Part shown: positions 27,357 to 61,385 of the stretch, piece after piece
Position numbering within the stretch: position 1 is the first letter of the stretch
How the letters are laid out: each line of letters starts with the position of its first letter
Assembly (NCBI RefSeq): GCF_003330725.1
Contig: NZ_CP030840.1
Location: 682,001-746,000, forward strand
Length of the DNA: 64,000 bases
Origin: Acidisarcina polymorpha
GTDB taxonomy: Bacteria > Acidobacteriota > Terriglobia > Terriglobales > Acidobacteriaceae
Reading direction: 5' to 3'
Notes under the pieces: generated by a model
Seen by the model: only the letters and a program-made list of their open reading frames with translations
Databases searched by the model: none
What the model was told of the DNA's origin: nothing
Translations under genes and position numbers: made by a program

Positions 27357-27388
27357 TTGGTTAGTATTACACTTTTTAGTACGTTCTT

Positions 27389-41125: not shown

Positions 41126-41163
41126 TGTGAACAAACCAAGTCGCATAGGTCGCTGTTGTCAGT

Positions 41164-42213
41164 TTATCGCTGCCATTCCTTCGTTGCTGCGTCGATTGCC
41201 CCAGCGGACGCCCGAAGTTCTGCGATCTCCGCGGATGTGGGTTGACTTTGTGAGCTTACCAGCCACCCGTTGAGTCGGACTTCGAGAGGAATACCGCAAA
41301 CTCCGTGAATATCGTGGAACTGGCCGCTCAATTGAACTTGCCCATGCACCCTTCGTCCGTCCGCGACCACCGCGGCGGAAAGGATCTCTAGCGTTGCGTT
41401 GGCCGTGGCATTGGGCGTCGAGTGAATCTGCGATTGTGTGATGAACGGTTCGACCATGATTCTTGTGCTGGGGGCAATCTCTTCCATGAGTTCGTACGCC
41501 TCCGCAAGCTGATGAGTTGAGATGAGTTCCTCAAGCCTTTTGCGTGTCATGGCAGCCTCTTCCTTGATATTGGTACGCTCATACCGCGCCTTGAGTGCAT
41601 CCAGGCGAGAGGTGCTCTCAGGATCGTCGACGGTTAGATGAACGGAGCTCCACATAGGAACCATTGCCTCCCCGTGTTCTCCGAGCACGCTTGCCCGGAC
41701 GAGCGAGCGATGAACGCCAAGTTGCGAGGCGATTGCACGGGCAAAACGAAGCGAATCCTGTTGCGCACCGATGCCAATGACCTTCTCTGGGCCTAAATGG
41801 GCTGCAAAGATCGCGACGGCAAGTTCCACGGGATTGCTGACGACGAGAAAGAGGGGGCAGCCCGCTGACTTACGGAATCGCTCTGCCAGTCTTTCGAAAA
41901 GAGGGAGATTGGCGTGGGCAAGATCGCGGCGAGTTCGTCGATTCTTTGAAATTGTTTGGCCCGCCGCAATCACGACAATGTCAGTGCAAAGATGTTCGAT
42001 CGATGCACAAATTGTGAGGCGGACCGCAGCTTCGTCAAAGGCATCCAGTAGGTCCATACGTGTTGCGTAGAGCCGACCGTTACTTTCAGGGGTACCTCGA
42101 CCAAGAAGGATGATTTCGTCACCTGGATTGAGCACAGAGCTTTTCAGCATGTGCATGAGAAGCGTCGAGCCTACGGCGCCTCCTGCTCCGACAATTGCTA
42201 CCCGCAGTGCCAC
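41164..42213 (-). CDS. Lactate/malate dehydrogenase-family protein
   Basis: A 349-residue protein. The NAD-binding half has 'MALRVAIVGAGGAVGSTLLM', 'DIVVIAAGQTISKNRRTRRD' and 'LVVSNPVELAVAIFAAH'. The catalytic half keeps the proton-relay His in 'ASVLGEHGEAMVPMWSSV'. The substrate-binding Arg context 'QTISKNRRTRRDLA' is unlike textbook malate dehydrogenase and the C-terminus is longer. The protein may therefore act on a different 2-hydroxy acid. It precedes the response regulator by 38 bp on the same strand and may share its operon. Confidence 0.72.
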   Translation of the reverse strand: MALRVAIVGAGGAVGSTLLMHMLKSSVLNPGDEIILLGRGTPESNGRLYATRMDLLDAFDEAAVRLTICASIEHLCTDIVVIAAGQTISKNRRTRRDLAHANLPLFERLAERFRKSAGCPLFLVVSNPVELAVAIFAAHLGPEKVIGIGAQQDSLRFARAIASQLGVHRSLVRASVLGEHGEAMVPMWSSVHLTVDDPESTSRLDALKARYERTNIKEEAAMTRKRLEELISTHQLAEAYELMEEIAPSTRIMVEPFITQSQIHSTPNATANATLEILSAAVVADGRRVHGQVQLSGQFHDIHGVCGIPLEVRLNGWLVSSQSQPTSAEIAELRASAGAIDAATKEWQR

Positions 42214-42354
42214 TCGCTCTTCTCCTTTTGTAGCTTCCAGGACATTTCAATCGCCCTTCACATCAAATATTGACGATCTGTTTGCAGCCAGCACAAAAGC
42301 TCGCCTGCGTGTCTTTTCTCACACTCATTTTGGAGAGTACTGATAGCCGCCGCC

Positions 42355-43266
42355 TTAACCTCCAACATTCAGCTTCCGCACAAGTAGTTCTTCCGATGTG
42401 CGCCATAGCCGTTCCGCCATGACGAGATCGGTAAGATACTTACTGCCTCCAGTAATTTGGCAGTCGGCCCAATACTGTCCTGAGACCCCTTCCACCAGTG
42501 GGCTGGCCGCAAGCAGGCATTGTGTCGCGGCCCCCTGTGACGCGGTTTTGAAAAACAGCTCAGCAATGGAAAGAACAAGAGAAACGGGAAACTGGATGCT
42601 GCGATTGAGATCTGTTCCTCTAACCGCTCCGGGATGAAGGGAGTTCACCACAATTCCACGGGGTGCCAGGCGGCGTGATAGCTCGCCTGCGAATATCGAA
42701 AGAGCAAGCTTTGACTGGCCGTAAAATTTCGACGCACTATAGTCACGGTGGCCATCAAGATCATCAAACCGGATGCCTTCTTTTGGAGCTTGATTCTTGC
42801 TGGCACTGCTACTGACTATCACTACCCTACCCTTCTTATCTGGAAGCTTAGGAAGCAGCTTATTTACTAAGAGAAAGTGTGACAGGTAATTCACGAGGAA
42901 CTGCATCTCGATTCCATCGCGCGTTGTTGCTTGCTTCGATCCCGTGATGCCTGCATTGGCGACGATCACATCAATCTTCTCGAAGCGTTCGGATATAAAG
43001 TCTGCAGCATGTATCACCGATTGGAGGTCCGACTGGTCGCACCCCACGGCCGTTGCTTGAGTGTCCGTCCGCAAGCATGCGTTTTGAGCCTTATTAAGTG
43101 AGCGAGCAATACCGATGACCCGTGCGCCCTTCGCACTCAGAGCGCGCATCGTCTCGAATCCTATGCCGCCACTGCAACCTGTAACCACGACCGTTCTATC
43201 TGAAAGGTCGAGACCGGCCAGCACTTCATCCGCAGTCGATTTGGACCCAAATGGCGTCTTGATCAT
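42355..43266 (-). CDS. Short-chain dehydrogenase/reductase (retinol-dehydrogenase-like)
   Basis: A 303-residue SDR: 'RTVVVTGCSGGIGFETMRAL', 'IDVIVANAGITGSKQATTRD', Ser in 'RVVIVSSSASKNQAP', 'YSASKFYGQSKLALSIF' (YxxxK) and 'RGIVVNSLHPGAVRGTDL'. The insertion after the active site and the overall length fit the extended RDH/WWOX-like group that acts on hydrophobic or polycyclic carbonyls. The ATG at 43266 has a GGAG site. Its 5' leader is the ~199-bp segment that is repeated in inverted orientation at 55325-55520. Confidence 0.85.
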   Translation of the reverse strand: MIKTPFGSKSTADEVLAGLDLSDRTVVVTGCSGGIGFETMRALSAKGARVIGIARSLNKAQNACLRTDTQATAVGCDQSDLQSVIHAADFISERFEKIDVIVANAGITGSKQATTRDGIEMQFLVNYLSHFLLVNKLLPKLPDKKGRVVIVSSSASKNQAPKEGIRFDDLDGHRDYSASKFYGQSKLALSIFAGELSRRLAPRGIVVNSLHPGAVRGTDLNRSIQFPVSLVLSIAELFFKTASQGAATQCLLAASPLVEGVSGQYWADCQITGGSKYLTDLVMAERLWRTSEELLVRKLNVGG

Positions 43267-43465
43267 GAGTTTTCTCCAAAAAACGTCCCGATTTTGGAAG
43301 ATACGGGATCGTCTATTCATTTGATTACCTGCCACTTCGTCCCATGTGCTCAATCCTAAGGTTTTCGAGTCCGATCTTGCTGTGGAGACGTGAGGAGTGC
43401 GGCTCGCGGCTGGACGCCGCCGAGCCCCATCCGTGCACAGACCAATGATCCTGTGTCTATTCCTT
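43267..43465 (-). repeat. Inverted duplicate, left copy (SDR leader)
   Basis: On the minus strand this segment runs AAGGAATAGACACAGGATCA … to CGGGACGTTTTTTGGAGAAA and directly precedes the SDR start. It is almost identical to 55325-55520 on the plus strand; the only clear differences are three missing bases near the SDR ribosome site in the other copy. It likely contains the SDR promoter and 5' leader. A stem GGCTCGGCGGCGTCCAGCCG-like inverted repeat (GCTCGGCGG / CCGCGAGCC) lies within it. Confidence 0.88.
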
Positions 43466-43767
43466 CGCTGAATGCATCGCCATGAGCGCTTATGGGCGTT
43501 GTGACTGTCCATTCCCAAAAATGCGTGCTAGCGTAGCCAACATGACAGGCTTGCGCCGTGCGTCGAAAGGGCACGTCTGTGCAACAGGTTCGGAGACTTG
43601 CTGCACAGCCTGAAGTTTGGGCCTTGGAGAAAACTCATGTGTTTCTTGATATATCGAGGCAACGTCCGTCCATTGCTGATTCGAGTGGCCAGTTCCCGAG
43701 CCGACGCGAGATGATCTTCGGCGCCCTAGCAACAGTCGGAGTTGGTTATATAAAACAGGAGAAATCG

Positions 43768-44082
43768 ATGGCAAACAAACTAACCCTTGTTGTACGATTC
43801 CGCATTCCCGAACCGCAGAAGCAGATGTTTCTGGCCAAGCTCCGCGACGTGTTCACGCATATCGTGAAGGAGGAAAACTTCGTTGAGGCATCTCTCGTAG
43901 AGGACATGCGAGATCCTGAGAGCATCCTGAATTATGAGGTCTGGGATGAAACTCCTGATTCCTTTATGAAGAGCCAAATGACTAGACCTTATCGGGCTGA
44001 CTTCGAACAGATGATTGCTGCCCTGAAAATCGAGCGGACTCCGGCCTGGTATTCAACGATCGAGGACTGGAAGAGGGCTTAG
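43768..44082 (+). CDS. ABM-type (quinol) monooxygenase
   Basis: A 104-residue antibiotic-biosynthesis-monooxygenase-fold protein: 'LTLVVRFRIPEPQKQMFLAK', 'ENFVEASLVEDMRDPESILN' and 'YEVWDETPDSFMKSQMTRPY'. ABM proteins are dimeric cofactor-free oxygenases or quinol monooxygenases (YgiN type). The ATG at 43768 follows an AGGAG by six bases. The frame is open upstream, and the stretch before the start reads 'SRREMIFGALATVGVG', which looks like a Tat signal. A longer exported form starting near 43558 is therefore possible. First gene of a plus-strand series inside the inverted repeats; the next gene begins 15 bp later. Confidence 0.78.
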   Translation: MANKLTLVVRFRIPEPQKQMFLAKLRDVFTHIVKEENFVEASLVEDMRDPESILNYEVWDETPDSFMKSQMTRPYRADFEQMIAALKIERTPAWYSTIEDWKRA

Positions 44083-44097
44083 CGGGAGGGCATCAAG

Positions 44098-44955
44098 GTG
44101 AGCAACGGGACTAGAATCATGTGGAACGGCACCGTCCGGGCTCTTCCATTTCCTGAGCAGCTGAAGGCCGCAAGTATTGCCGGCTGTACTTCCATCGCTA
44201 TCACTCCGTCGGACTACAACAAGTGGCTCGGCGCAAGTACGCCAACTTCGGATCTCAAGTCTATGGCGAGGGATGAAGGTGTGGAGATTACTCATCTCGA
44301 TCCGTTCGTTCGCTGGACAAACGATTGGAAGCCAAACCTGCGCGGCCTGAACTTTCCTATCGACACTGTGGGTTTCGACGCCGACGACTTTTTCCGTATG
44401 GCAAGCGCTCTCCAGGTCAACTCCTTCACTGCGTGGAGTGGGTTCGCTTCTGGGCGCTATTCTCTAGCCGAGATTGAGGACGCATTCGGCCAGCTTTGTG
44501 CACGCGCAGCTCAGGAAGGGCTTCGTTGCGACCTTGAGTTCATCCCTGTTTTCGGTGTTCATTCATTGAAAATGGCATGGGATATCCTACGACATGTCAA
44601 TGCCGAAAACAGCGGCATTGTCTTTGACTTCTGGCACTATATGCGAAGCGGACCCGATGAGGCATTATTGCGCAGCATTCCTGGCGAGAAGATCACAGCG
44701 GTCCAGCTATGCGACGCGACCGCCTACGTTCCTGAAGGGATGTCGCTCGCCTATGACGGTTTGAATAACCGTCTAGCTCCAGGCGATGGAGCATTCCCAA
44801 TTGTCAGCCTCGTCAAGACGCTCCGAGAAATGGGTGCCCTTAACGATGTCGGAGTCGAGGTGTTCTCGCCACGTTTTGATCGCTTGGATGCACAAACAAT
44901 CGGGAATCTCACGCGCGGAGTGTTTGATCGCTTTCTTGCATCAGATTGGTCCTAG
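44098..44955 (+). CDS. Sugar-phosphate isomerase/epimerase-like TIM barrel
   Basis: A 285-residue AP-endonuclease-2-like TIM barrel. Strand ends carry probable metal ligands: Asp/His in 'EITHLDPFVRWTND', Glu in 'RCDLEFIPVFGVHS', Asp in 'SGIVFDFWHYMRSG', and Glu in 'DVGVEVFSPRFD'. Members are isomerases, epimerases or ring-opening enzymes of sugars and inositols, and some act in secondary metabolism. The GTG at 44098 lies 15 bp after the ABM gene with a GGGAGGG ahead; an ATG at 44119 is an alternative. The neighbours do not fix the substrate. Confidence 0.78.
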   Translation: MSNGTRIMWNGTVRALPFPEQLKAASIAGCTSIAITPSDYNKWLGASTPTSDLKSMARDEGVEITHLDPFVRWTNDWKPNLRGLNFPIDTVGFDADDFFRMASALQVNSFTAWSGFASGRYSLAEIEDAFGQLCARAAQEGLRCDLEFIPVFGVHSLKMAWDILRHVNAENSGIVFDFWHYMRSGPDEALLRSIPGEKITAVQLCDATAYVPEGMSLAYDGLNNRLAPGDGAFPIVSLVKTLREMGALNDVGVEVFSPRFDRLDAQTIGNLTRGVFDRFLASDWS

Positions 44956-45006
44956 ATTCCCGATACGGTTTACAGCAGTTTAGTCTCCGTTTGCTCACGC
45001 TACCTG

Positions 45007-45028
45007 ACTCCAGCCTTTGAGCTGGAGT
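45007..45028 (+). terminator. Probable terminator
   Basis: ACTCCAGC and GCTGGAGT form a perfect 8-bp stem with a six-base loop followed by TTGTG. It lies 52 bp after the TIM-barrel gene. The rest of 44956-45250 has no gene and probably holds the promoter of the cupin series. Confidence 0.5.
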
Positions 45029-45250
45029 TTGTGCATGTGCACTTAGGAAACACGTGATGTTGCCGCTGTCTCGAAGCCTTGAGCGAGTGCATCGATCCAA
45101 AGCCGAGCTTCTGGACACATGGGTACGAGTCATACCCAGTACAACAAAAGAGAGCGGGCCAAGGGCCTTAGACGTCCGAATTGCAGAACCCGCGGGCAGC
45201 GTCCAGTTATTTGCGCGGCCCACCCATATGAAAGCGAGTGACGACAAGCT

Positions 45251-45778
45251 ATGAAGGACATTCTCAACCTTATTCCGGCGCAGGAAGGTGTTCGCGAGAT
45301 CAAGCCAAACGAAGGAAAGCCTTTTGATCTGGGCCCAGTACACTTTCGCTGGAAGGTTCGCAGCGAAGATAGCGCACATACCTACACGATGTTCGAGCTG
45401 CATTTGGCGCCGGGCGGCGGAGTCGACCTTCACAGCCACGCCTCTCCCGAGACTTTCTACGTACTCGAAGGCGAAGCGACCTTCTTCCGTATCACAAAGG
45501 GCGTGCAGGAAGCAGTCCTCTGCGGTCCCGGAACGACTATCGTCATCCCGCCCAATGCTCTTCACGCGCTCTTCAACAAGAGCGACAAGGATTGCCGGTT
45601 ACTCGATGTTTCCACAGGTTCTCATCAAGACTTCTTTGATTCGGTGCAGAAAGCCGACCGGGCCGAAAACTTTGCTGCTATGAAGCCGAAAGTCGCAGCA
45701 CATCGCCTGTCCGAGATCGCCCGCGAGAACGAGATGTACCTGGCCGCCTACGACGTGAATACGGAGAGAGAGGTGTAG
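45251..45778 (+). CDS. Cupin-domain protein
   Basis: A 175-residue single cupin. Motif 1 is 'GGVDLHSHASPETFYVLEGE' with His-His-Glu ligands (near 63-72), motif 2 is 'TTIVIPPNALHALFNKS' with the fourth His. A C-terminal helical tail ('NFAAMKPKVAAHRLSEIARE') is unusual for a small cupin. Metal-binding ligands are complete, so an enzymatic role (dioxygenase, isomerase) is possible. It is three bases from the next cupin gene and first of a series of four cupins in 4.6 kb. Confidence 0.8.
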   Translation: MKDILNLIPAQEGVREIKPNEGKPFDLGPVHFRWKVRSEDSAHTYTMFELHLAPGGGVDLHSHASPETFYVLEGEATFFRITKGVQEAVLCGPGTTIVIPPNALHALFNKSDKDCRLLDVSTGSHQDFFDSVQKADRAENFAAMKPKVAAHRLSEIARENEMYLAAYDVNTEREV

Positions 45779-45781
45779 TCC

Positions 45782-46342
45782 ATGACCAAGCCTGAACATA
45801 CGACAACAGCTTTTAACCGCACCGCGACTCTCGATTCAACGGTTGCCTATATGGGAAGCCTGATGACATTTCTTGCGAAAGCGTCGGAAACCGATGGGCG
45901 CTTCGCCCTGATGGAGTATTACACCAAGCCCGGGAACGAACCACCACCACACATTCATGATCGTGAGCACGAGATGTATTTCGTGCTTGATGGCTCAATG
46001 CGCTTTTACTGTGAAGACAAAACGATGGATATCCACGCGGGTGACGTTGTTTTTCTTCCTCAAGGGAAGGCGCATGCCTTCAACTGCACTTCGGCTCAAG
46101 TACGCACATTGATTCTTGTAGCGGCATCGGGCGAAGGTTCCGTAGGGCTTGACAACTACTTTCAGACGATGGGGGAGGCCACGCGAAGCATGTCTCTTCC
46201 GGAGCATGCCACAACGTACGTGGAGGACACTCCTGAGCGAGCCATCAAGGCGTGCCATGACAATGGCATTTATGTGATGTCCAAAGAGGAGACAAGGATC
46301 GCATTACCACAGTATCCGGGCTTCGGCGTGCCTGTTCGCTGA
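45782..46342 (+). CDS. Cupin-domain protein
   Basis: A 186-residue cupin with metal motif 1 'EPPPHIHDREHEMYFVLDGS' (near 55-74) and motif 2 'VVFLPQGKAHAFNCTSAQVR'. The ending 'ALPQYPGFGVPVR' is shared with the cupin at 48781 ('ALPEYPGFGVRVS'), as is 'SLMTFLAKASETDGR' with 'QVITLLAKGSETNGR'. The two are clearly paralogues. Quercetin-dioxygenase-like cupins have this layout. It is translated right after the cupin at 45251, with its ribosome site inside that gene's last codons. Confidence 0.82.
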   Translation: MTKPEHTTTAFNRTATLDSTVAYMGSLMTFLAKASETDGRFALMEYYTKPGNEPPPHIHDREHEMYFVLDGSMRFYCEDKTMDIHAGDVVFLPQGKAHAFNCTSAQVRTLILVAASGEGSVGLDNYFQTMGEATRSMSLPEHATTYVEDTPERAIKACHDNGIYVMSKEETRIALPQYPGFGVPVR

Positions 46343-46371
46343 CATCGAAAACTCAGAATAGGAGGTCAAGT

Positions 46372-46764
46372 ATGACATCAGTTGGTGACGTAACAGAAAT
46401 TGAACGCTTCGAAGATATGCGTTACACGGCAATGCTTCACAAGGATCTCACCACCCTGAACCGGCTTCTGCACGACAACATGATTCATGTTCACTCCACA
46501 GGAAATCAGCACACGAAAGCTGACTATCTCAAAGGACTCGAAGAAGGCCAATTCGTGTACCGGCAGATTGATCGTTCTCACCAGGAGGTCCTATTGCAGG
46601 GGCCAGTAGCCTTGGTTTTCAACCATTTGTTCTTGCGCCTGACTCTAATGGGGAAAGACATCGAACTGCACAACCGAGCTCTCACCGTCTGGGTTCTTGA
46701 GAAGGGATCTTGGCAAATGCTCGCTATGCAGTCGACTCTAGAACCTTCAGCCGCCCAAAAATAG
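46372..46764 (+). CDS. SnoaL/DUF4440-like protein
   Basis: A 130-residue NTF2-fold protein: 'FEDMRYTAMLHKDLTTLNRL' then 'LHDNMIHVHSTGNQHTKADY' and 'FNHLFLRLTLMGKDIELHNR'. DUF4440 members are mostly uncharacterised; relatives include ketosteroid isomerases. The ATG follows an AGGAGG by six bases, 29 bp after the cupin gene, so it is in the same operon. Confidence 0.78.
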   Translation: MTSVGDVTEIERFEDMRYTAMLHKDLTTLNRLLHDNMIHVHSTGNQHTKADYLKGLEEGQFVYRQIDRSHQEVLLQGPVALVFNHLFLRLTLMGKDIELHNRALTVWVLEKGSWQMLAMQSTLEPSAAQK

Positions 46765-46803
46765 CTCTCGACAAGACGAAAGACCAAGAGGAAATCTAGA
46801 CCT

Positions 46804-47853
46804 ATGCCGACCATCCTCGATCCGATACAAATCGGTGAACTTACATTGCCGAACCGAGTACTGATGGCGCCGATGACTCGTCTCCGCGCGACGGTCGACA
46901 ACGTTCCGACGCCGATGATGACGGAGTACTACACGCAGAGAGCTTCCGCAGGGCTCATCATTGCCGAAGCCACGCCGATCTCGCCCGGGGCTCTCGGGTA
47001 CGCGCAGGTGCCTGGCATATGGTCAGGGGCACAAGTTCAAGCCTGGAGGAGCATTACAACTTCGGTGCACTCGCATGACGGCCGGATCTATTTGCAACTA
47101 TGGCATGTCGGCCGTATCTCCGATCCGATTTTTCTGAATGGCGAGCTTCCAGTCGCGCCGTCTGCCATCGCCGCTGCCGGGCACGTCTCGCTTGTTCGAC
47201 CTCAGAAGGCATTCGTCACTCCCCGCGCGCTGGAAACCCATGAGGTGCACGAAGTTATCGAGGAGTTTCGGCTAGCAGCTCAGAATGCGGAGCGTGCCGG
47301 CTTCGATGGCGTAGAGATTCATGGTGCAACCGGTTATCTGCTCGACCAATTTCTTGAATCAGGAACGAATGTCCGCACGGATGAATTCGGCGGTTCAGTT
47401 GAGAATCGTGCCCGCCTGCTGCTCGAAGTAGCTGACGCATGTGTTTCCGTATTTGGCGCCGGGCGCGTTGCGATGCGCATCTCTCCCCGCGCCGATAGAC
47501 ATGATATGTCCGATGCGAGTCCTGCCGAGACCTTTAGTTACGTAGCGCGCGAGGCTGGCAAACGAAACTTAGCTTACCTCCACGCTCGCGAATATAGGGC
47601 GGACGATTCGCTTGGCCCCCGCCTAAAGCAAGAGTTTGGCGGTATCTATGTCGCTAATGAAAGCTTCACCTTCGCGAGTGCGAACGAGAGTTTGGCCAAG
47701 GGGGAGGCCGACGCCGTTTCATTTGGCCGACTCTTCATCGCGAATCCCGAGCTTCCACGGAGTTTCGCGGAAGGTATCGATCTAGACCAACCTGACCCAA
47801 CGACCTTCTATGCTCATGGCCCTGAGGGATATGTTGACAAAGTCGTTCGCTGA
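46804..47853 (+). CDS. Old Yellow Enzyme-type alkene reductase
   Basis: A 349-residue FMN TIM-barrel enzyme. 'LPNRVLMAPMTRLRATVDN' is the FMN loop (Thr of MTR), 'IYLQLWHVGRISDPIFLNGE' has the Gln and the Trp-His of the active site, and 'GVEIHGATGYLLDQFLESGT' with 'TDEFGGSVENRARLLLEV' is the family signature. The H-x-x-N pair is 'HGATG', in which the second residue differs. The conserved Tyr and phosphate-binding ending 'ADAVSFGRLFIANPELPRSF' are present. It reduces activated C=C bonds with NAD(P)H (NemA group). In this series it could act on an enone or quinone intermediate. Confidence 0.88.
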   Translation: MPTILDPIQIGELTLPNRVLMAPMTRLRATVDNVPTPMMTEYYTQRASAGLIIAEATPISPGALGYAQVPGIWSGAQVQAWRSITTSVHSHDGRIYLQLWHVGRISDPIFLNGELPVAPSAIAAAGHVSLVRPQKAFVTPRALETHEVHEVIEEFRLAAQNAERAGFDGVEIHGATGYLLDQFLESGTNVRTDEFGGSVENRARLLLEVADACVSVFGAGRVAMRISPRADRHDMSDASPAETFSYVAREAGKRNLAYLHAREYRADDSLGPRLKQEFGGIYVANESFTFASANESLAKGEADAVSFGRLFIANPELPRSFAEGIDLDQPDPTTFYAHGPEGYVDKVVR

Positions 47854-47967
47854 AGAGCCACTACTGCATGCGTTTCATTGGAATCGAAAGCTCGATGATG
47901 ACGATGAAATGAAGTCGGTGTTGGCATCAAAAAACGCATGTTCTGTCGTAAACCAAAAGGAAAACTT

Positions 47968-48477
47968 GTGAAAATGATGAAGTGTGACATTCGAGCCGAA
48001 CGTGAAAGCGCCATCCAAGGCGGCGCTACATGGACTATTCCCGCTGCGAAGCTTTTGCTGTGGGGATTCATTGCTGTAGCGACAACGAGCCAGGCACAGT
48101 CTCGCAGTAATGAACAGAAGGCCCTATTCCAAAAAGCAACTGCAGTGTGGACGGCCTTCCAAAACAAAGATATGAAAACGATGCAGACCCTCATGTCACC
48201 CAATTTCGTCTTCATCGGGAAAGAGGGGATTCTGTCGGGAGCGGAAGTGGGGGCGCAAAATTGCACGCTTCACTCCTTCGCTTTGAAATCTGATCAAATG
48301 CGCCCTTTAGGGTCGCGTGCCGCTGTCCTGACGTACCGAGCAGAGCAGGATTACGAATGTAACGGCCAAACGGAGTCCAAAGAACTACTCGTGAGCGATA
48401 GCTTCTCCTTCATCGACGGCAAGTGGCTACTCGTTGCTCATGCAGAGGTGGCCCCTGTAGGCCCCGCAATGCCCTAA
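47968..48477 (+). CDS. Exported NTF2-like/DUF4440 protein
   Basis: About 169 residues. A GTG at 47968 with AAAGG seven bases ahead is preferred; an ATG at 47974 is also possible. A hydrophobic stretch 'LLLWGFIAVATTSQAQS' is an N-terminal signal near residues 30-45. The mature part is NTF2-like: 'ATAVWTAFQNKDMKTMQTLM', 'PNFVFIGKEGILSGAEVG' and 'SFSFIDGKWLLVAHAEV'. It is a second, exported member of the small-fold proteins in this cluster. Function unknown. Confidence 0.7.
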   Translation: MKMMKCDIRAERESAIQGGATWTIPAAKLLLWGFIAVATTSQAQSRSNEQKALFQKATAVWTAFQNKDMKTMQTLMSPNFVFIGKEGILSGAEVGAQNCTLHSFALKSDQMRPLGSRAAVLTYRAEQDYECNGQTESKELLVSDSFSFIDGKWLLVAHAEVAPVGPAMP

Positions 48478-48780
48478 TCAATGCCCGCGCCACCTCATCG
48501 AATGAATGGAGGCGAGATCTGCCAGTCTCCACAAACCCTCCGGTGCTTCCATCCCGTGCGACATAGTCGCCGTGCGCGTCTAGCGGCAGTTTTCCGAAGA
48601 GAATGAACCAATTTTCGGACTTTTGGACACACGTCGCTGGCCCGCTCCACCTAAAACAGAATAGGCGCGCCGCAGAAAAGCTTTCAATGTCGAGAGTTTC
48701 TGAATAGCGGCCTGCATACCCTGCTATATGCGATGACTTGGTTAGGGCCACCGACAGCAGCGAAGAGTGAGGCAAATTGA
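48478..48780. other. Intergenic region inside the cupin cluster
   Basis: There are 303 bases without a credible gene. A minus-strand frame across it has no ribosome site. It likely carries a promoter for the second half of the cluster. Confidence 0.35.
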
Positions 48781-49347
48781 ATGACAAGTACTGATAAACA
48801 AGTAACACCGAGCGCTTATTCCCGTGAAGTTAATGTGGCCTCAACAATCAAGTACATGGGGCAAGTGATTACTCTGCTTGCGAAGGGGTCCGAAACCAAC
48901 GGACGGTTAGCCTTTATGGAAGTCAAGGTTCGTCCAGGGCTAGAGCCGCCCGTTCATATCCACGAGCGGGAACACGAGCTCTTTTTCGTGCTTGAAGGTT
49001 CTGTTCGCTTCTACACTCCAGATAAAACCTTCGATGCGCACGCCGGTGGTGTGGGCTTTCTGCCTCAGGGGAAGGCTCACACGTTCGCGTGTCTCACGGA
49101 TGAGGTGCGAGCTCTTATCCTGGTAGGCGCCACCGGACCGGAGACCGTGGGCATGGATGGCTACCTGCTCCAGATGGGCGAAGCGGCACGCGACCTTTCA
49201 GTCCCGGACCCCTCCACTATCGCACCGATTGAGGATCCAACAGAGACGATTCAGGTCGGAGCCTCTTGGGGTATTCGTTTCCTTTCGCCGGAAGACACGA
49301 AGAAAGCCCTACCCGAATATCCGGGTTTCGGCGTACGCGTATCCTAG
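48781..49347 (+). CDS. Cupin-domain protein, paralogue of 45782
   Basis: A 188-residue cupin: motif 1 'EPPVHIHEREHELFFVLEGS', motif 2 'GVGFLPQGKAHTFACLTDEV'. It aligns over its whole length with the cupin at 45782 (shared 'PGFGV' ending and 'LAKGSETNGR' opening). Its ribosome site is weak. The duplication inside one cluster suggests two related substrates or a heteromer. Confidence 0.82.
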   Translation: MTSTDKQVTPSAYSREVNVASTIKYMGQVITLLAKGSETNGRLAFMEVKVRPGLEPPVHIHEREHELFFVLEGSVRFYTPDKTFDAHAGGVGFLPQGKAHTFACLTDEVRALILVGATGPETVGMDGYLLQMGEAARDLSVPDPSTIAPIEDPTETIQVGASWGIRFLSPEDTKKALPEYPGFGVRVS

Positions 49348-49433
49348 TTCGTCCGAGGATTACAGACGGGTCAGATCACTCATAGCGGGCTTCGACCGTC
49401 TGTAGTTTCACTATATAGAAGGAGGTTTTATCC

Positions 49434-49880
49434 ATGGCTCGTAAACCTGAATTCATCCTTGCCGGTGTGCTCATGAAGCAGCAGCTATCGGGTAAAGACA
49501 CGAGCGGCACGTTTTCGCTATTTGAGAACCGGAGCGGTGGACAATCAAAGACCCCGATTCATGTGCATGCAAACGACGACGAGACGCTCTTCATCATGGA
49601 GGGCGAGATGAAAGCCCTGATCGCCGGGGAGGAGCAGACCATCAAGGCGGGAGAGTCGGTCTTTCTGCCTCGAGGCATCCCACATCAGCTTATGAATACA
49701 AGCGGTCTGCCAGCGCATTACATGCTGCTTTGCACGCCAAGCGGTTTTGAAGGTTTTCTTGCAGAGGGTGGCCGTCTAAGGGTTGAAAACGAAGAAGTTG
49801 GTCCACCCTGGCCGGAGGACATCGATAGATTGAAGGCCGCAGCTCCGAAGTTCGGAATTACGTTGCTTTCCGGCTGGTAG
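49434..49880 (+). CDS. Cupin-domain protein
   Basis: A 148-residue cupin with motif 1 'TPIHVHANDDETLFIMEGEM' and motif 2 'SVFLPRGIPHQLMNTSG'. Here the Glu ligand pattern HxH(x)4E is 'HVHANDDE'. A strong AAGGAGG precedes the ATG. The fourth cupin of the cluster, less related to the others. It is 44 bp from the exported hydrolase that follows. Confidence 0.82.
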   Translation: MARKPEFILAGVLMKQQLSGKDTSGTFSLFENRSGGQSKTPIHVHANDDETLFIMEGEMKALIAGEEQTIKAGESVFLPRGIPHQLMNTSGLPAHYMLLCTPSGFEGFLAEGGRLRVENEEVGPPWPEDIDRLKAAAPKFGITLLSGW

Positions 49881-49924
49881 ACGCTTGCTGAACGAAGTCT
49901 CACTAACTCTGCAGGGAGGTTGTG

Positions 49925-51007
49925 ATGAATCGACGTGCGTTTACTTCCCACGGGGTCGGGGCAGCATTAGCCGCTCTGATCCCGTCTTCAGCAAGTGCGC
50001 AGTCAAGACCTGCCCCTAGCCCATCCGATCTAGCCCAGGAACTGCCGAGTGCCCTCCCGGTGCCCGCAGCTTGTGCCGCTTTGCGCGAGCTTCCTGACCC
50101 GCCGTCAGAAGCTGTGTCGCAGAAGCTCTTGCCTGGCTTCAAATCCCATCGTATCCAAACGTCGGGTGCGGAGATCAATGTTCTCACCAAGGGTAGTGGG
50201 CGTCCACTGCTCCTAATCCACGGACCTCCGGAGACCCATCTGACTTGGCACAAGATAGCACCAGCCTTGGCCGAAGAATACACCGTCGTCATTCCGGATC
50301 TTCGAGGCTATGGTGATTCCAGCAAACCAGGGTATAGCCCTGATCACATCAATTACTCGTTCCGCGCCATGGCTCTGGATCAAGTGGAGGTTATGAAGCA
50401 ATTGGGGCATCAGCGCTTCATGGTGGCGGGACATGATCGCGGCGGCCGTGTTGCCCATCGGCTTTGCCTGGACCATTCTGAGGTAGTCGACAAGGTGGCA
50501 GTTCTTGACGTAGCACCGACTCTAACCATGTATCAACAGACGAGCAAGGAATTTGCCACGAAGTACGTATGGTGGTTTTTACAGATTCAGCCTTCGCCTA
50601 TGCCCGAACACTTGATTGGTCTCGATTCCGTCTTCTACCTTCGGGATCATCTTGCGATGCAAGGCAAGACGCCGGGAGCGATCTCTCCCGAGGTCATGGC
50701 GGAATACATCCGCTGCTACTGCTGCGTCGGCACAATACGCGCCGTCTGCGAAGACTATCGTGCTGCCGCCGGCATCGACCTCGAGCATGATCGCGACGAT
50801 GACAGCCGAAACAATTACATTCAAGCTCCTCTGCTTGCCCTCTGGGGCGCCAAGGGAACTGTGGGTCACTTGTGGGATGTTCTTGCCACATGGAGAGCCA
50901 AGAGCAACAACGTAGTGTCTGGGAAACCACTTCCGTGCGGTCATTTGTTGCCGGAAGAAGATGCCGACGGCGTGTTAGCGGAGTTTCGGGCATTCTTCCG
51001 TGCATGA
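49925..51007 (+). CDS. Exported haloacetate-dehalogenase/epoxide-hydrolase-like enzyme
   Basis: A 360-residue alpha/beta-hydrolase with an N-terminal Tat signal ('MNRRAFTSHGVGAALAALI', cleavage near 'ASAQS'). The catalytic core is 'LLLIHGPPETHLTWHKIAP' (oxyanion loop), 'VVIPDLRGYGDSSKP', nucleophile Asp in 'MVAGHDRGGRVAHRL' and His in 'GKPLPCGHLLPEE'. An Asp nucleophile with 'HDRGGR' is the fluoroacetate-dehalogenase pattern, so hydrolytic dehalogenation or epoxide opening is likely. The GGGAGG site sits five bases before the ATG at 49925. Its stop overlaps the start of the DUF2490 relic. Confidence 0.83.
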   Translation: MNRRAFTSHGVGAALAALIPSSASAQSRPAPSPSDLAQELPSALPVPAACAALRELPDPPSEAVSQKLLPGFKSHRIQTSGAEINVLTKGSGRPLLLIHGPPETHLTWHKIAPALAEEYTVVIPDLRGYGDSSKPGYSPDHINYSFRAMALDQVEVMKQLGHQRFMVAGHDRGGRVAHRLCLDHSEVVDKVAVLDVAPTLTMYQQTSKEFATKYVWWFLQIQPSPMPEHLIGLDSVFYLRDHLAMQGKTPGAISPEVMAEYIRCYCCVGTIRAVCEDYRAAAGIDLEHDRDDDSRNNYIQAPLLALWGAKGTVGHLWDVLATWRAKSNNVVSGKPLPCGHLLPEEDADGVLAEFRAFFRA

Positions 51008-51777
51008 GGCGACTCATAAGGTATTTGCTAGCCATCTGCGTAGATTCTTCGGCTGCTCACGCCGCAGCACAGCGGACGGCCTCTCCCAATGGCGGGACAA
51101 GCCCTAGCGCCTGGTTCAGCTACTTCGGAGATCAACCGGTTTCAGACCACTGGGCGGTGCATTTGGAGGGTTCCTATCGCAGGACTCTGGATTTATCCCA
51201 ATTCGAACAGGTTGAATTACGTCCTGGCCTTTCTCTTAGCGAAAGCGACGCGAATTAAAGCTTCCTGGCGTATACATTTATCGATTCCCACACCACGAGC
51301 GGCGGGACCTTCGCTACCGCTCCTGCTGTTGTCCGGCAGATTGAGAACCGACTGTTCGAACAGCACCAAATCACAATGAAGCTCTCGCACCGCAGTGGAT
51401 CGGTTCCTGCGATAGTCCAGCGTTTTCGCTTGGAGCAGCGATGGAAAGAGACAGCGCAAGCTGTGCAGAGATACGGCCCCATCGAATTCAGTGAGCGCGC
51501 GCGTTATCGTCTCACAACAAAGCTACCGCTTAGCAATTCGACAACCTCCACGCATTAGAACGAGGTTTACACCGACGCCAGCGTGAAGAAGACTCACTTC
51601 AATGCTGACGTCACCTATGGCGCTCTAGGTTCGCGACTGAGCGACTATTGGGCAATCGAAGTCGGTTATCAGTTCCGCTACGCGTCTACGCCTGTCGGCG
51701 TGACAGGTCCCGAAGATCACTCCTTGCAGATTTATCTTCTTTCCACCGCCCCGTTCCTCCGCGCTCACAGGAAGTAG
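51004..51777 (+). pseudogene. DUF2490-type outer-membrane protein with two in-frame stops
   Basis: A frame of 257 codons begins at an ATG overlapping the hydrolase stop (ATGA) with a signal-like start ('LIRYLLAICVDSSAAHAAAQ'). It reads 'AWFSYFGDQPVSDHWAVHLE' and 'QFEQVELRPGLSLS', then TAA at 51256, then 'SFLAYTFIDSHTTSGGTFAT', 'RLEQRWKETAQAVQRYGPIE', then TAG at 51556, then 'NEVYTDASVKKTHFNADVTY' and 'IEVGYQFRYASTP' to 51777. All parts stay in one frame and match DUF2490, a beta-barrel family. The stops look like single-base changes (for example TAC to TAA). It is probably dead. Confidence 0.72.
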
Positions 51778-52079
51778 CTTTTCTCGCTCACCGTGGAGCG
51801 GAAACACCTTGACGAAACGTACGGACACGTCCCAGAGGCTTTAGGCACGCGTGAGAAATCGTGCCAAGTTCAAATAGCTGACACAGATTCACTTGCTGGT
51901 CGCAGGAGACACCATTCGTCGTCCAGCTGCTCATAGGAAGAGTTCCACTAGGTGTGCGGACTGAAACGGTGTGAGCGTGAGGTTCACAGGCCACCCGATG
52001 ATCATCGACCTAACGTCCAAAGCAACCCGGTCTCAGGGTTCACGGGCTATTGAAATTACTAACAAAAGAAGGAAACACA
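51778..52079. other. Intergenic, no gene seen
   Basis: About 300 bases. Only short frames, no strong hairpins. It likely holds the promoter of the DUF418 gene. Confidence 0.35.
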
Positions 52080-53456
52080 TTGATTACGAGCCAACTTGCT
52101 CCAGAAATAGAACTGGCCGGGCCAGAGCCAGTGATCGCTCCGGTCACTTTGTCTAATCGCATATCGAGTGTCGACATTCTGCGCGGGTGCGCACTGCTGG
52201 GAATTCTAGTTTTGAATATTCAGGACTTCGGCGATGTATCGATGGCGCATGATGTGCCACTAGGCAGCAGCATCAGCATCTTTTCCGGCAGACATCCGCA
52301 TCTCGACTTCGTTGCCTTACTAATCAGCTGGCTCTTCTTCGAAGGCAAGATGCGAGCTCTGTTCTCAATGCTCTTTGGAGCGGGTGTCATCCTTCTCACA
52401 AGACGCGCGGAGCAGCGGGATAAGGAAGCTGCAGATATTTATACCCGAAGGAACATGTGGCTTATGTTGATCGGGCTTCTCCATGGTTGCCTCATTTGGT
52501 CCGGTGACATTCTCTTTGATTATGGATTCGAAGGGCTACTTTTCCTGTATCCCTTACGCCGATTGAATGCGAAGACGCTCCTATGGTCAGGATCCTTGCT
52601 CTCACTCTTCATTGCGCCTATCGGCATAACAATCTTCATCGGTACCGCTCCTGAATACTTGCTTCATCACCAAGTTGCTCAAGTCATGCATCGACAGCAG
52701 GACGGCAAGCCGCTTGATAGCGCGCAACGCGAAACACTCACACAATGGAGTGCCTTGCTGAAGAGCAAGACTCCGGATCCGATCGCCATCAAAAAGGAAG
52801 TCGAGGAGCATCGAAACCAAACCTATCTAGCCGGAGTGGCAGAGCGTTCTCAGATCGAACTTTGGTCTGAGTTCGCAAGGATTCGACTTGGTTCAGTTTT
52901 GGATTGCGTGCCCGCTATGCTCCTTGGCATGGGATTAATGAAGATCGGCTTTTTCTCGCTCGAACTTGAAACCACGGCGTATATTTGGACTGCGCTAATT
53001 GGGTTCGCAATCTCCTTGCCCCTATACACCGCCGGCATTCTCAGGGTGTATGCCAGCAGGCTGTACTTCTATAACATTGATGCGTGGCTCTTCGGCCCTT
53101 ACTACATTACTCGTGAGGCGGGATCATTGGCAATTGCAGCAACAGTGCTTTTGCTTATCAGGGCGGAATTCTTTAAGCCTGCACAACGTGCACTCGCCGC
53201 AGTGGGCCGAACGGCATTCAGTAATTACCTGCTCACTAGCATTATTTGCCAATTCATCTTTGTTTGGGGACCATATCCGCTCTTTGGCAGGCTCGAATAC
53301 TTTCAGCTCTTCTTCGTGACGTTTTCAGTGTGGGTGTTTAACCTCGTGTTCAGCTCAGTCTGGCTTCGATCTTTTGCTTATGGCCCCTTCGAGTGGCTAT
53401 GGCGCTCGCTGACATATTGGAGGCCTCAGGCGATGAGGCTGCCGCCTGCAAGCTGA
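52080..53456 (+). CDS. DUF418 membrane protein
   Basis: A 458-residue integral membrane protein of the DUF418/YeiB family with about nine hydrophobic spans. It shows the N-terminal 'RISSVDILRGCALLGILVLN' signature and C-terminal DUF418 sequence 'LAAVGRTAFSNYLLTSIICQ' with 'WLRSFAYGPFEWLWRSLTYW'. The family belongs to the acyltransferase-3-like/HGSNAT group and may move acyl groups across the membrane. A TTG start at 52080 has an AAGGAA ahead; the frame is open back to 52050. Confidence 0.82.
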   Translation: MITSQLAPEIELAGPEPVIAPVTLSNRISSVDILRGCALLGILVLNIQDFGDVSMAHDVPLGSSISIFSGRHPHLDFVALLISWLFFEGKMRALFSMLFGAGVILLTRRAEQRDKEAADIYTRRNMWLMLIGLLHGCLIWSGDILFDYGFEGLLFLYPLRRLNAKTLLWSGSLLSLFIAPIGITIFIGTAPEYLLHHQVAQVMHRQQDGKPLDSAQRETLTQWSALLKSKTPDPIAIKKEVEEHRNQTYLAGVAERSQIELWSEFARIRLGSVLDCVPAMLLGMGLMKIGFFSLELETTAYIWTALIGFAISLPLYTAGILRVYASRLYFYNIDAWLFGPYYITREAGSLAIAATVLLLIRAEFFKPAQRALAAVGRTAFSNYLLTSIICQFIFVWGPYPLFGRLEYFQLFFVTFSVWVFNLVFSSVWLRSFAYGPFEWLWRSLTYWRPQAMRLPPAS

Positions 53457-53654
53457 ACGGGTTCGCGTCGTTCACAACGGTGTCACGTGTCCGGCTCACG
53501 CCAACGTTTGGATTCGGCGGAATTATCGGCACAGTTCCAAACTTCCGAGCACACGCCCGATAGAGGATCACGATCAACTTGATGAGTTGACCGCCGCTTA
53601 CCCGCGATGCGGAGATAGGTTCGTACTCATTTTCAAGAAGGAGTATTTGACAAA

Positions 53655-53858
53655 ATGACGCGACAAGAGAGACTCAGTTGTTTTCTCAGGAAGTTCATCG
53701 GATGGGATGAGCTCTGCATTGAGTCAGAACCGTTCGATACAGAGTACGAGGCCGTGGCGTGCAGGAGAGTTTCCGTCATGCTCTTCGGATGCGCCGCTCC
53801 AGATCACTTGCGTTGCTCACAGTTCTTGACCGGGATCATAGGCATCGCTCGCTGCTGA
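53655..53858 (+). CDS. Short unknown frame
   Basis: 67 codons with a good AAGGAG site 10 bases before the ATG. The sequence ('FLRKFIGWDELCIESEPFDT') matches nothing I know, and the C-terminal part is Cys-rich. It may be a real small gene or the decayed start of something in the 53457-53934 gap; nothing else is visible there. Confidence 0.25.
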   Translation: MTRQERLSCFLRKFIGWDELCIESEPFDTEYEAVACRRVSVMLFGCAAPDHLRCSQFLTGIIGIARC

Positions 53859-53934
53859 GCCAGAATGCGTTCAGGCCCGGCACTGCTAGCGCCGTAGACA
53901 ATCCGTTTCCCAATACCTGCATGCGAGGAGTTTT

Positions 53935-55332
53935 ATGTCACATTGTGGAAATCAAAGCAAACGTTCGTTAAGTGAGGGAGGTCTAATCGCCCTATCGTCT
54001 CTCTTGGATCAGCTCAAACTTGCTCCCTACTTTAAAGGCGAAGCGACCATGCGGGGACTTGATCCCATCATTCGCTCCCCGCATAAGCTCGGCGAAGCGT
54101 CGGCTACAGCGCAACTCCTAATTGGCGCCGCGGCGGCGGCAATTTGGGAGACAAGAACGGGTGAGCGAAGCAATCTGTCGATCGACATTGTTGATGCTCT
54201 TCACTTCTTGCACCCTACCCACTACGTGAGTCAAGCCGGACACTCAATCAACGTCGGTGCCGAATTCGTGGAGACAAACGGTATTTTCCAATGCGAAGAT
54301 GGCCAGTACGTGATGATCGAGGCCGGGCCGCCTTATCCGAAACTTCTCAAAGGTTACCTGGACTTCTTTGATTGCGGAAACAACAAGAAGTCCATCGCTC
54401 GAGAGATCGCAAAATGGAATGCTAAAGAATTAGAAGACGCTCTTGCCGCAGCAGGACTACCGTGCTGTCGAGCTTTCAGCCGCGAGAAATGGCTGGAAAC
54501 CGAGCAGGGATCGCTCTTGGATAAGGTGCCGGTCATTGAGATCGAGAAGATTGCTGATAGCGCACCTGTACCATTCCCCGGAACCTTCTCACCGTTAGAC
54601 GGCATCCGAGTCTTGGACTTCACGCATGTGCTCGCAGGCCCTAGAAGTACGCGCTCGCTGGCGGAGTACGGAGCCGAGGTACTGCACGTCAGCGCACCGG
54701 CCTACCCCGATACGCTCGCGCAACATCTTGGTGTCGATGTGGGGAAGCGTTGCACCTACTTGGATCTCAGAAATCCAGATGAACTGGCGACGATGCATCG
54801 ACTAGCGTCTCAAGCGGATGTATTCGCATCAACTTATCGTAATGGCGTGAACCGAAAGTTTCATCTCACACCTGCAGAACTGGCATCACGCAGCGAACGT
54901 GGCATCGTGTGCATGACAGCGAATGCCTATGGGCACCAAGGACCATGGAGCGACCGTCCAGGCTTCGATCAGAATGGTCAGGTGGTCTCCGGATTTGCGG
55001 TGCGGGAAGGGGGTGAGGGACCTCCGAAGTTCTCTCCGGTCTTTTATCTAGCAGACCTGATGACTGGCTACTTCGCCGCCGCAGGAATGATGGCGGCACT
55101 ACTTCGCCGGTCCATTGAGGGTGGCTCGTACGACGTGAAGCTCTCGCTTGCGAGAAGCGCCATGTGGGTAGAAGAGCTCGGCCTCTTGCCTCTGAACGAG
55201 CAAGTCGACGTCCCCAGCGATGATATATATCCGGCCAAGCTCAACACAATCGACACCGTATATGGTCCCCTCTCGTTTCTGGCCGCCCCCCTGCGCTTTT
55301 CTGGACTGGAACTGCCATCGACTAAGGAATAG
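53935..55332 (+). CDS. Family III CoA-transferase (CaiB/BaiF), two-domain, 3' end replaced
   Basis: A 465-residue protein made of the C-terminal part of one CoA-transferase III domain (1-215, 'DGQYVMIEAGPPYPKLLKGY') fused to a second domain (220-465) with 'LDGIRVLDFTHVLAGPRSTR' and 'YLDLRNPDELATMHRL'. It also has the pattern 'CMTANAYGHQGPWSDRPGFD'. The second domain's Asp nucleophile position is around 'DLMTGYFAAAGMMAALLRR', which is well conserved. The first domain lacks its N-terminal Rossmann segment, so the annotated start may be downstream of the original one. The last codons ('LELPSTKE') run into the 55325-55520 repeat, so the original C-terminus is lost. It would move CoA between acids. 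Confidence 0.75.
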   Translation: MSHCGNQSKRSLSEGGLIALSSLLDQLKLAPYFKGEATMRGLDPIIRSPHKLGEASATAQLLIGAAAAAIWETRTGERSNLSIDIVDALHFLHPTHYVSQAGHSINVGAEFVETNGIFQCEDGQYVMIEAGPPYPKLLKGYLDFFDCGNNKKSIAREIAKWNAKELEDALAAAGLPCCRAFSREKWLETEQGSLLDKVPVIEIEKIADSAPVPFPGTFSPLDGIRVLDFTHVLAGPRSTRSLAEYGAEVLHVSAPAYPDTLAQHLGVDVGKRCTYLDLRNPDELATMHRLASQADVFASTYRNGVNRKFHLTPAELASRSERGIVCMTANAYGHQGPWSDRPGFDQNGQVVSGFAVREGGEGPPKFSPVFYLADLMTGYFAAAGMMAALLRRSIEGGSYDVKLSLARSAMWVEELGLLPLNEQVDVPSDDIYPAKLNTIDTVYGPLSFLAAPLRFSGLELPSTKE

Positions 55333-55520
55333 ACACAGGATCATTGGTCTGTGCACGGATGGGGCTCGGCGGCGTCCAGCCGCGAGCCGCACTCCTCACG
55401 TCTCCACAGCAAGATCGGACTCGAAAACCTTAGGATTGAGCACATGGGACGAAGTGGCAGGTAATCAAATGAATAGACGATCCCGTATCTTCCAAAATCG
55501 GGACGTTTTTGGAAAACTCA
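55325..55520 (+). repeat. Inverted duplicate, right copy
   Basis: 196 bp nearly identical to the reverse complement of 43267-43465. It includes AAGGAATAGACACAGGATCA at the start and CGGGACGTTTTTGGAAAACT near the end. Here it interrupts the end of the CoA-transferase gene and is followed by no SDR, so this is the transplanted copy. Confidence 0.88.
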
Positions 55521-55957
55521 AAATCTTAAAAGGAGATGAGCCGGAGCGCTGTTCGCATGAGAGAACCGTAGAGATCTGTTCATGGGCGCCACAAAGAAGT
55601 TGCTGATCGACAGTCTGTGTGCCTTGAACAAGACGGCGTCATCGAGCGAAAAGAGCCGGAGGCGCTGTTCGTCATGTCGAGTATGCAATCGTGGACGTGC
55701 TCAAAACTCCCACGATCAACCCCATCCAGTGCTTGGCAAACTGGTCTCCGCCATTGAGCGGCGTTACCTCTCAATCGAAATGGTCGAGGCTCCGCATGAG
55801 ACGCAGGGAAATGGTCTGTGAAGCCCGGAAGGTCTCGAACATCGACGGCATGCAGAGAAGGAGTCCTCGACTCTCCAACCGAGGGACCTCTCCGTATCTG
55901 AGACCGCTCTTTCAACGGAATGGTGAACAGTCCTACTTTCCCATGGGAGCGTGACTC
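55521..55957. other. Non-coding stretch after the repeat
   Basis: About 437 bases with no credible gene. A short direct duplication is seen: GAGCCGGAGCGCTGTTCG near 55538 and GAGCCGGAGGCGCTGTTCG near 55651. It may be scar sequence from the rearrangement that placed the repeat. Confidence 0.4.
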
Positions 55958-56707
55958 GTGTCCTCAGAATCACTAGGTTTTCGTCCGACGCCAACTTCCA
56001 CCGCAAATGTCGCACGCCGAGATGTGGCTGCTTCCCACCCAGTCTTGTGGCCTCTCCTGGTTGCCGAAGGTCTCTTCGCTTTGGTGGGAGGCTTTATGGA
56101 TGCTTATGCCTTTGTTGGGCATGGCGGTGTCTTTGCGAACGCGCAGACGGGTAACATTGTCATGCTCGCTGCCTATGCGACCATCGGCAACTGGAATCGG
56201 GCGATGCGACATTTCCCTCCTATCGTTACCTTCATTGTGGGCGTCGCTTTCGCCAAGTTTGTGATCTCCCGTAAAAGTAGAAACCAATTCATGCCGAGGC
56301 TCTGCTGCCAGGTCTTAGAACTCTCAGCGCTCGTGACCCTGACAGCTTTCGCTTCCCACTTACCAAACGTTGTCGTCGTGCCATTCATCTCCTGTGTGGC
56401 TGGCCTTCAGGTTGGCACCTTCGACTCCGTGACGGGGTGGAAATTCAATAGTGCGATGATCACGGGGAATATCAAGAGCATGACGACAGGGTTCGTGCGC
56501 TGGTTCCAGGGTGAGGATGTGGACCGAAGCAAGGGACAAGCCTTGGTTTCTGCATGTGCATGTGCCTCCTTCTTCGTAGGAGCGCTTTTCGGAGCCTACT
56601 GCACGAGAAGGTTCAGGACCTACGCCTTAGTACCCTGTGTCCTGATGGTCTTGATGGGATCACTGCTGACTTGGACACAGCACTCCACGATTGGCGACGA
56701 CGCCTAG
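55958..56707 (+). CDS. YoaK/DUF1275 membrane protein
   Basis: A 249-residue protein with six predicted spans. 'LFALVGGFMDAYAFVGHGGV' and 'FANAQTGNIVMLAAYATIGN' form the family signature; 'DSVTGWKFNSAMITGNIKSM' is the internal repeat half. DUF1275 proteins are inner-membrane proteins of unknown transport role. The GTG at 55958 is the likely start. A gap of 156 bp separates it from fumC. Confidence 0.85.
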   Translation: MSSESLGFRPTPTSTANVARRDVAASHPVLWPLLVAEGLFALVGGFMDAYAFVGHGGVFANAQTGNIVMLAAYATIGNWNRAMRHFPPIVTFIVGVAFAKFVISRKSRNQFMPRLCCQVLELSALVTLTAFASHLPNVVVVPFISCVAGLQVGTFDSVTGWKFNSAMITGNIKSMTTGFVRWFQGEDVDRSKGQALVSACACASFFVGALFGAYCTRRFRTYALVPCVLMVLMGSLLTWTQHSTIGDDA

Positions 56708-56863
56708 TCCACCTTTCCGATGGAACGTGCAAGGAGTCGGGCATTTAGACAAGACGACTCCCTGTTGATCATGCAAAGTGAATTATCACACCTTGTCTTC
56801 AGCGCGCTCTGAAGACGTTACTCAGTGGCCTAGAGTGCTAAGAAGGAAGAGGAGTTCAGCGAC

Positions 56864-58336: not shown

Positions 58337-58378
58337 ACGGGGTAACGATAGCAAAACTCACGGAAAGAGCATACCGGG

Positions 58379-59698: not shown

Positions 59699-59753
59699 TG
59701 ATCAGAGCCCCCAGACAATGACAACGTTCTCAACGATTCGTGAGGAGACAGAT

Positions 59754-61376: not shown

Positions 61377-61385
61377 TAGAACAAA

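Follow-up and report, generated by a model that had tools for sequence, protein, structure and literature searches.

We analysed a stretch of 64,000 nucleotides from the chromosome of Acidisarcina polymorpha (NZ_CP030840.1, positions 682,001 to 746,000; here called the window), and focused on an inverted repeat, the two arms of which are separated by 11,859 bp. One arm, copy A, is the leader of a gene for a short-chain dehydrogenase/reductase (SDR) and sits between this gene and a divergent ABM-domain gene. The other arm, copy B, lies in the end of a gene for a family III CoA-transferase and is followed by what remains of a gene for an HxlR-type regulator. In window coordinates, the features at the two borders are as follows.

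42355-43266, minus strand: SDR gene encoding 303 residues (Pfam PF00106, E=5e-35), start codon at 43266
43266-43465, minus strand: copy A of the repeat, the SDR leader, with its core at 43279-43465, ending at the first base of the SDR start codon
43639-44082, plus strand: ABM-domain gene, divergent from the SDR gene (Pfam PF03992, E=1e-7 for 43768-44082), with a putative GTG start at 43639
53935-55332, plus strand: family III CoA-transferase gene (Pfam PF02515, E=2e-49), native DNA to about 55323, 3' end apparently replaced by copy B
55324-55520, plus strand: copy B of the repeat, inverted, in the CoA-transferase gene end, with its core at 55324-55510
55511-55700, plus strand: decayed HxlR-type regulator gene, 5' end apparently lost to copy B

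The arms are identical in 187 of 187 bases between 43279-43465 (minus strand) and 55324-55510 (plus strand). The similarity extends past this core to 43266 and 55520, respectively, with three gap positions (200 vs 197 nt), and a BLAST search of the repeat inside the window gave E = 4e-94. An initial annotation of this DNA had stated that the SDR leader reappears inverted at about 55325 and that the copies differ by about three bases; both statements hold, the latter as the three gap positions outside the core. When sought across the entire genome (7,600,726 bases in 5 contigs, of which the main contig, i.e. the chromosome, has 7,112,011 bases), the repeat was detected at these two places only. 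A T run is six bases long in copy A and five in copy B; the difference may have arisen by a later change or may reflect a homopolymer error, to which GS FLX data such as those used for the assembly are prone.

For comparison, we used a second cluster in the A. polymorpha chromosome (C1:3286000-3320000), which is colinear with window 35756-49880 in blocks of ~65-76% identity, and two other genomes. This paralogous cluster (L009, L010) holds two-component, SDR, ABM, TIM barrel, cupin and FMN oxidoreductase genes, roughly 70% identical. Among 120 genomes of the family, the SDR was found at E<=1e-60 in A. polymorpha alone, at two places, and the leader was found in 1 of 61 genomes (60 relatives and A. 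polymorpha), again its own. In 399 genomes of the class, a query of 375 bases with the leader and the intergenic region matched two genomes at E<=1e-4, A. polymorpha itself and G373, which belongs to a different genus of this family, and the SDR protein matched three at E<=1e-70, i.e. these two and G333. When window 53935-56150 was searched in 62 genomes of the genus of G373, G333 matched with the CoA-transferase and G373 with the leader only. The divergent SDR/ABM pair is present in the paralogous cluster, in G333 and in G373.

G373 carries window 32635-51688 at 98.7% identity and 56152-61404 at 98.2%, in the same order and orientation, and also 21327-31642 at 93.5%. The ~24 kb that the two genomes have in common at 98-99% were probably transferred recently between the genera. 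The 19-kb block contains 217 mismatches, of which 53, together with 21 of the 26 gap positions, fall within 32635-32999; without this edge, the divergence is about 0.9%. The leader is present once in G373, as copy A at 99%. Copy B has the A. polymorpha base at the position equivalent to 43427, and the five-T run is as in G373. At the place of the right border, G373 has neither the CoA-transferase nor copy B, and its junction across the missing segment shares TA.

51689-56151: segment absent from G373 at this place, comprising the end of a broken DUF2490 gene, a DUF418 gene, the CoA-transferase gene, copy B and part of a DUF1275 gene

In G333, the genes have the order and orientation of the window, i.e. 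SDR/ABM, a hydrolase, DUF2490, CoA-transferase, fumarase and malic enzyme, and an HxlR frame lies between the CoA-transferase and the fumarase. The hydrolase gene of G333 is interrupted by a transposase frame. Here and below, the names fumarase, malic enzyme, propeller histidine kinase, quinone oxidoreductase, IS110-like transposase, relaxase/mobile gene and the G333 transposase are readings of translations. The DUF2490-like gene, which is broken in window 51000-51800, has a counterpart in G333 that is an open frame of 254 residues (PF10677).

Copy B begins within the reading frame of the CoA-transferase, which stops there as ...LPSTKE*. The protein has 465 residues in the window, 483 in G333 and 490 in L012, a locus from a collection of species genomes; in the alignment, it is 18 columns longer in G333 (...LPSAFQLEPYGASAPAWLRGVAAI) and 15 columns longer in L012 (...LPDAVSLEPYGAGLPEWLECV). 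In the same collection, 24 pattern matches gave four CoA-transferase loci, 68-70% identical and titled as metagenome-assembled genomes of Tardiphaga, Rhodospirillales, Pseudomonas and Mycobacterium; of these, L012 and L013 have a readable tail, and the CoA-transferase of L014 runs beyond LPAYHRLVPYGADAPEW in its listed frame. Thus, the second copy cuts the end of the CoA-transferase gene, as the initial annotation had it, and the proteins of G333 and L012 read on further. Within the family, the CoA-transferase was found at E<=1e-40 in 2 of 200 genomes, i.e. A. polymorpha and one genome at 37% identity. A six-frame search of the window for the lost tail, as the pattern PYG..P[ED]W, gave no match; the rest of the genome was not searched for it. 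Searched against its own genome, window 55200-56900 matched only itself and copy A.

Behind copy B, homology to G333 resumes. Window 55584-55693 matches G333 8290-8179 at 74% (E=1e-10), and the G333 frame at this place is an HxlR regulator (PF01638, E=2e-14, profile positions 2-65 of 91), the gene for which may itself be shortened; the remnant in the window is in broken frames. The homologous blocks are spaced 283 bp apart in the window (55301 to 55584) and 282 bp apart in G333 (8572 to 8290); for hand-picked anchors nearer to copy B, the spacing is 195 and 197 bp, respectively. At the right end of the repeat, the donor reads TTTTTTGGAGAAAACTCATGATC and copy B reads TTTTTGGAAAACTCAAAATC; the last ~10 nt of copy B are probably native HxlR-gene sequence. 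The right edge of copy B, GGAAAACTCAAAATC, has AAAACTCA in common with the donor; read as codons, it gives K-L-K-I-L, which agrees with the K-L-K-V-L of the G333 HxlR frame; therefore, the copied part may end at this short stretch common to donor and target, at a switch point.

The G333 arrangement is likely the earlier state. There, the CoA-transferase gene is followed by the HxlR gene, and the homology resumes behind copy B, which argues that copy B replaced the 3' end of the CoA-transferase gene together with the gap behind it and the beginning of the HxlR gene. Because G373 has copy A alone and the SDR/ABM pair is also present in G333 and the paralogous cluster, we infer that copy A is the older copy. 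Copies A and B have 0 differences in 187 bases vs ~1.6 expected at the ~0.9% divergence from G373; this fits a young copy B, and supports the earlier statement that the duplication is recent, without proving that copy B is younger than the split from G373. Copy B is probably not much older than this split. Moreover, copy B is an inverted copy of nearby, otherwise single-copy DNA, and its source is unchanged in its older place, as in G373, both of which are features of template switching.

On these grounds, we consider it probable that copy B arose by a templated, inverted replacement with copy A as its source. In this process, a strand under synthesis at the CoA-transferase end would have annealed, 12 kb away, to the SDR leader on the opposite strand, ~190 nt of the leader would have been copied, and synthesis would then have resumed on the original template within the HxlR gene. 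The native DNA lost in this way would amount to about 195 bp, comprising the last ~20 codons of the CoA-transferase gene as well as the gap and the 5' part of the HxlR gene, and the remaining HxlR gene would have decayed after the replacement. Copy A would have stayed as the SDR leader, the segment between the copies would have kept its orientation, and copy B would now be without function. We infer from the sequence both the exact right edge and the mechanism, which may have been two inverted template switches or a short single-strand patch. A short single-strand patch would yield the same product as two template switches.

The left border contains two further sequence elements.

43264-43279, minus strand: 16-nt TTGGAGAAAACTCATG at the SDR start, with an exact inverted twin at 43624-43639 (plus strand) at the ABM gene start
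43524-43537, plus strand: CGTGCTAGCGTAGC, a conserved intergenic motif that is not part of the repeat, unchanged in G373 and G333 and 12/14 in the paralogous cluster

The TTGGAGAAAACTCATG twins are 344 bp apart and are the sole two exact matches in the genome; the sequence is common to G373 and was not found in the fetched stretches of G333 and the paralogous cluster. The pair may delimit a small promoter region that is able to invert, or may be two similar ribosome-binding sites. The motif CGTGCTAGCGTAGC is a candidate operator or promoter element of the SDR/ABM pair. Outside the repeat, the SDR/ABM intergenic region is recognisably related both to that of G333 (score 62 vs 26.0 +/- 4.9 for shuffled sequences, 0/400 as good) and to that of the paralogous cluster (40 vs 26.5 +/- 4.7, 7/400). 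Over the half of the intergenic region that corresponds to the copy A core, G333 and the paralogous cluster are related to each other (48 vs 26.9 shuffled, 1/400).

Similar repeat pairs are present elsewhere in the chromosome. C1:1-2000000 contains 73 repeat pairs at E<=1e-12, eight of which are 50-600 bp long and >=94% identical. Four of the eight are inverted, i.e. copies A and B, a 208-bp pair 30 kb apart, a 398-bp pair 12.6 kb apart and a 67-bp pair 655 kb apart, and four are direct, i.e. a 302-bp pair 36 kb apart, which lies in a mobile-element gene, a 129-bp pair 4.9 kb apart, a 60-bp pair 36 kb apart and an overlapping tandem. A separate pass over the first 1.2 Mb (80-450 bp, >=93% identical) also gave four inverted and four direct pairs, and as a short control, 0.4 Mb of the related genome G383 contained six pairs, of which one direct 53-bp pair was within the size and identity limits. 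With the pair in the mobile-element gene set aside, all three near-identical pairs of 180-400 bp are inverted and have their partners at most 30 kb apart.

The 208-bp and 398-bp pairs are inverted pieces of longer open frames, for a propeller histidine kinase and a quinone-oxidoreductase-like protein, respectively. The 208-bp pair is 98.6% identical between L075/L076 (C1:839955-840162) and L077 9866-10072, and this piece is found in the genome at two places and at a related place at 81%. The 398-bp pair is 99.7% identical between L081 (C1:954761-955158) and L082 7717-8113, its piece is found at two places, and its second copy is ~120 bp from an IS110-like transposase frame. The window itself also contains a 66-bp inverted pair (2854-2919 and 6386-6450, 94% identical), which includes TTATGTGGAATCA and could represent mobile-element ends. 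Copy B may be one case of a kind of accident that recurs in A. polymorpha. That the species repeatedly makes local inverted copies of 200-400 bp of ordinary single-copy DNA at 10-30 kb from their source, through a mutation process characteristic of it, and in this way rewrites gene ends in a variable region of the chromosome, is a tentative and rather doubtful extension.

Several observations weigh against a templated replacement from copy A. G333, which stands in for the A. polymorpha sequence before the event, is only ~75% identical there. Copy B lies inside the segment missing from G373, and G373 is silent on copy B before that loss. At the left edge, no microhomology could be demonstrated. 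On the right, 55511-55583 aligns weakly to G333 (196/2000 shuffles as good); the right edge of copy B is therefore uncertain, and the near-equal spacing is possibly due to chance. The copy A core itself has no detectable counterpart in the intergenic region of G333 (28 vs 26.8 shuffled, 143/400) or of the paralogous cluster (27 vs 24.7 shuffled, 119/400), which raises the possibility that copy A in turn goes back to an earlier replacement or insertion, with the core as a newcomer. Finally, with four inverted vs four direct pairs in 2.0 Mb, an excess of inverted pairs is not apparent.

The missing counterpart of the copy A core in G333 and the paralogous cluster would also be expected if the 187-bp core were a small non-autonomous mobile element that inserts beside a TTGGA(GA)AAACTCA-like sequence. 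Such a sequence follows both copies, and a third is present at the ABM gene start. We nevertheless regard this explanation as unlikely. The element would have two copies in its own genome, one in G373 and none in the other 397 of 399 genomes at E<=1e-4; the core is absent from a plasmid collection at E<=1e-3, and a 23-nt piece of it has no exact match in viral contigs. No inverted repeat of >=10 nt was reported inside the core, where an insertion sequence or MITE would have terminal inverted repeats; the scan listed an 11-nt imperfect direct repeat (43311-43321 and 43455-43465). In addition, a further deletion of ~195 bp would be required that also took the CoA-transferase end. A 12-kb mobile element with terminal inverted repeats was considered and rejected, since the left border lies inside a block colinear with the paralogous cluster and G373. 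An alternative in which the leader RNA was reverse-transcribed and inserted, the unit ending at a terminator-like hairpin with a T run, fits the observation that the identical part stops close to CGGGACGTTTTT, following a predicted stem whose loop is 13 nt long. It is very improbable: the fold energy of the repeat is ordinary (z -1.07), and the other two inverted fragments, of 208 and 398 bp, derive from inside reading frames. An Rfam scan of 43100-43700 gave 0 matches at E<=5 and a promoter scan of 43000-44000 gave 0 sites; a terminator scan of the latter region gave two terminator-like sites, neither of which is the T run at the leader end, where the stem with the 13-nt loop was not scorable by a scan that accepts loops of 3-8 only.

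The initial annotation had proposed that the 12-kb segment between the arms is invertible. The arms would recombine, by RecA or a recombinase, and the flip would change the DNA upstream of the SDR leader and on the DUF1275/fumarase side. The 187 identical bases are in the inverted orientation that this requires, and such a length of identity is sufficient for homologous recombination, so that a flip could occur in principle, perhaps giving a rare form in culture. Moreover, an in-silico flip places the CoA-transferase end before the SDR leader and moves the motif at 43524-43537 to the far border, which could have a regulatory meaning. The comparisons did not bear the proposal out, and we consider it highly unlikely. 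The left border is unflipped in the window, G373, G333 and the paralogous cluster, and the right border is unflipped in G333; no flip was seen at any of these four loci. In addition, the inner genes would retain their own upstream DNA, and copy B is explicable without any flip. The same orientations bear on a past inversion with staggered breaks, the least probable of the explanations: inverted duplicates at two borders match the general pattern left by such an event, whereas both borders here share the orientation of G333, and the left border that of G373 and the paralogous cluster as well. An assembly artefact is scarcely more plausible. The genome was built from GS FLX and MinION reads (A. 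polymorpha SBC82; PMC6252331, as excerpted), in which local errors are possible; against this, the mean GS FLX read of 549 nt given there is longer than the repeat, the flanking DNA differs between the copies, and beyond copy B it is homologous to G333.

Altogether, the repeat is most plausibly the trace of a copying accident, in which one gene lost its end and another was broken, and not a switch. If a flip does occur, the SDR leader and the conserved motif at 43524-43537 would come to lie apart. The locus provides a natural example of a short inverted copy in the position of a neighbouring gene end, worked out by comparison with relatives in which the likely earlier state is visible, and it cautions that a near-identical inverted repeat should not be read as a switch without checking relatives. 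If the 208-bp and 398-bp cases share this origin, they would provide a countable record of inverted template switching outside the usual model bacteria.

In short-patch double illegitimate recombination in Acinetobacter baylyi, an intragenomic short single strand replaces a stretch of DNA via short matches at both of its ends. This process would fit the nearly unchanged spacing at copy B; its patches are usually much shorter than copy B. Among the papers listed in our literature searches, we found none that describes the process, and nothing on it in Acidobacteriota. Templated insertions at double-strand breaks in yeast and cancer cells (PMC11724301, PMC8421209) are alike in that a short copied stretch, sometimes inverted, is present at a repair junction. 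These systems are eukaryotic, and the templated inverted duplications in the yeast abstract are mostly ~5-34 bp. Among the papers listed by a search for templated insertions, no bacterial case was apparent from titles and the beginnings of abstracts, from which we do not claim that such cases are unreported.

The closest likeness in the mechanism is to the long-distance inverted template switching, or microhomology-mediated break-induced replication (MMBIR), described in starving Escherichia coli by Lin et al. (2011; PMC3161906, as excerpted), where inverted switching acts across tens of kb, most switches there spanning such distances. The two systems are alike in the two inverted switches, the inverted nearby copies and the short matches at junctions. 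The cases in E. coli differ: they comprise amplifications, in which inverted duplications of 5.2-42.6 kb are embedded, as well as inversions and deletions, under lac selection. Unlike these, the event proposed here would have taken place in a natural genome and would have put an inverted copy of ~190 bp in the position of a similar length of native DNA.

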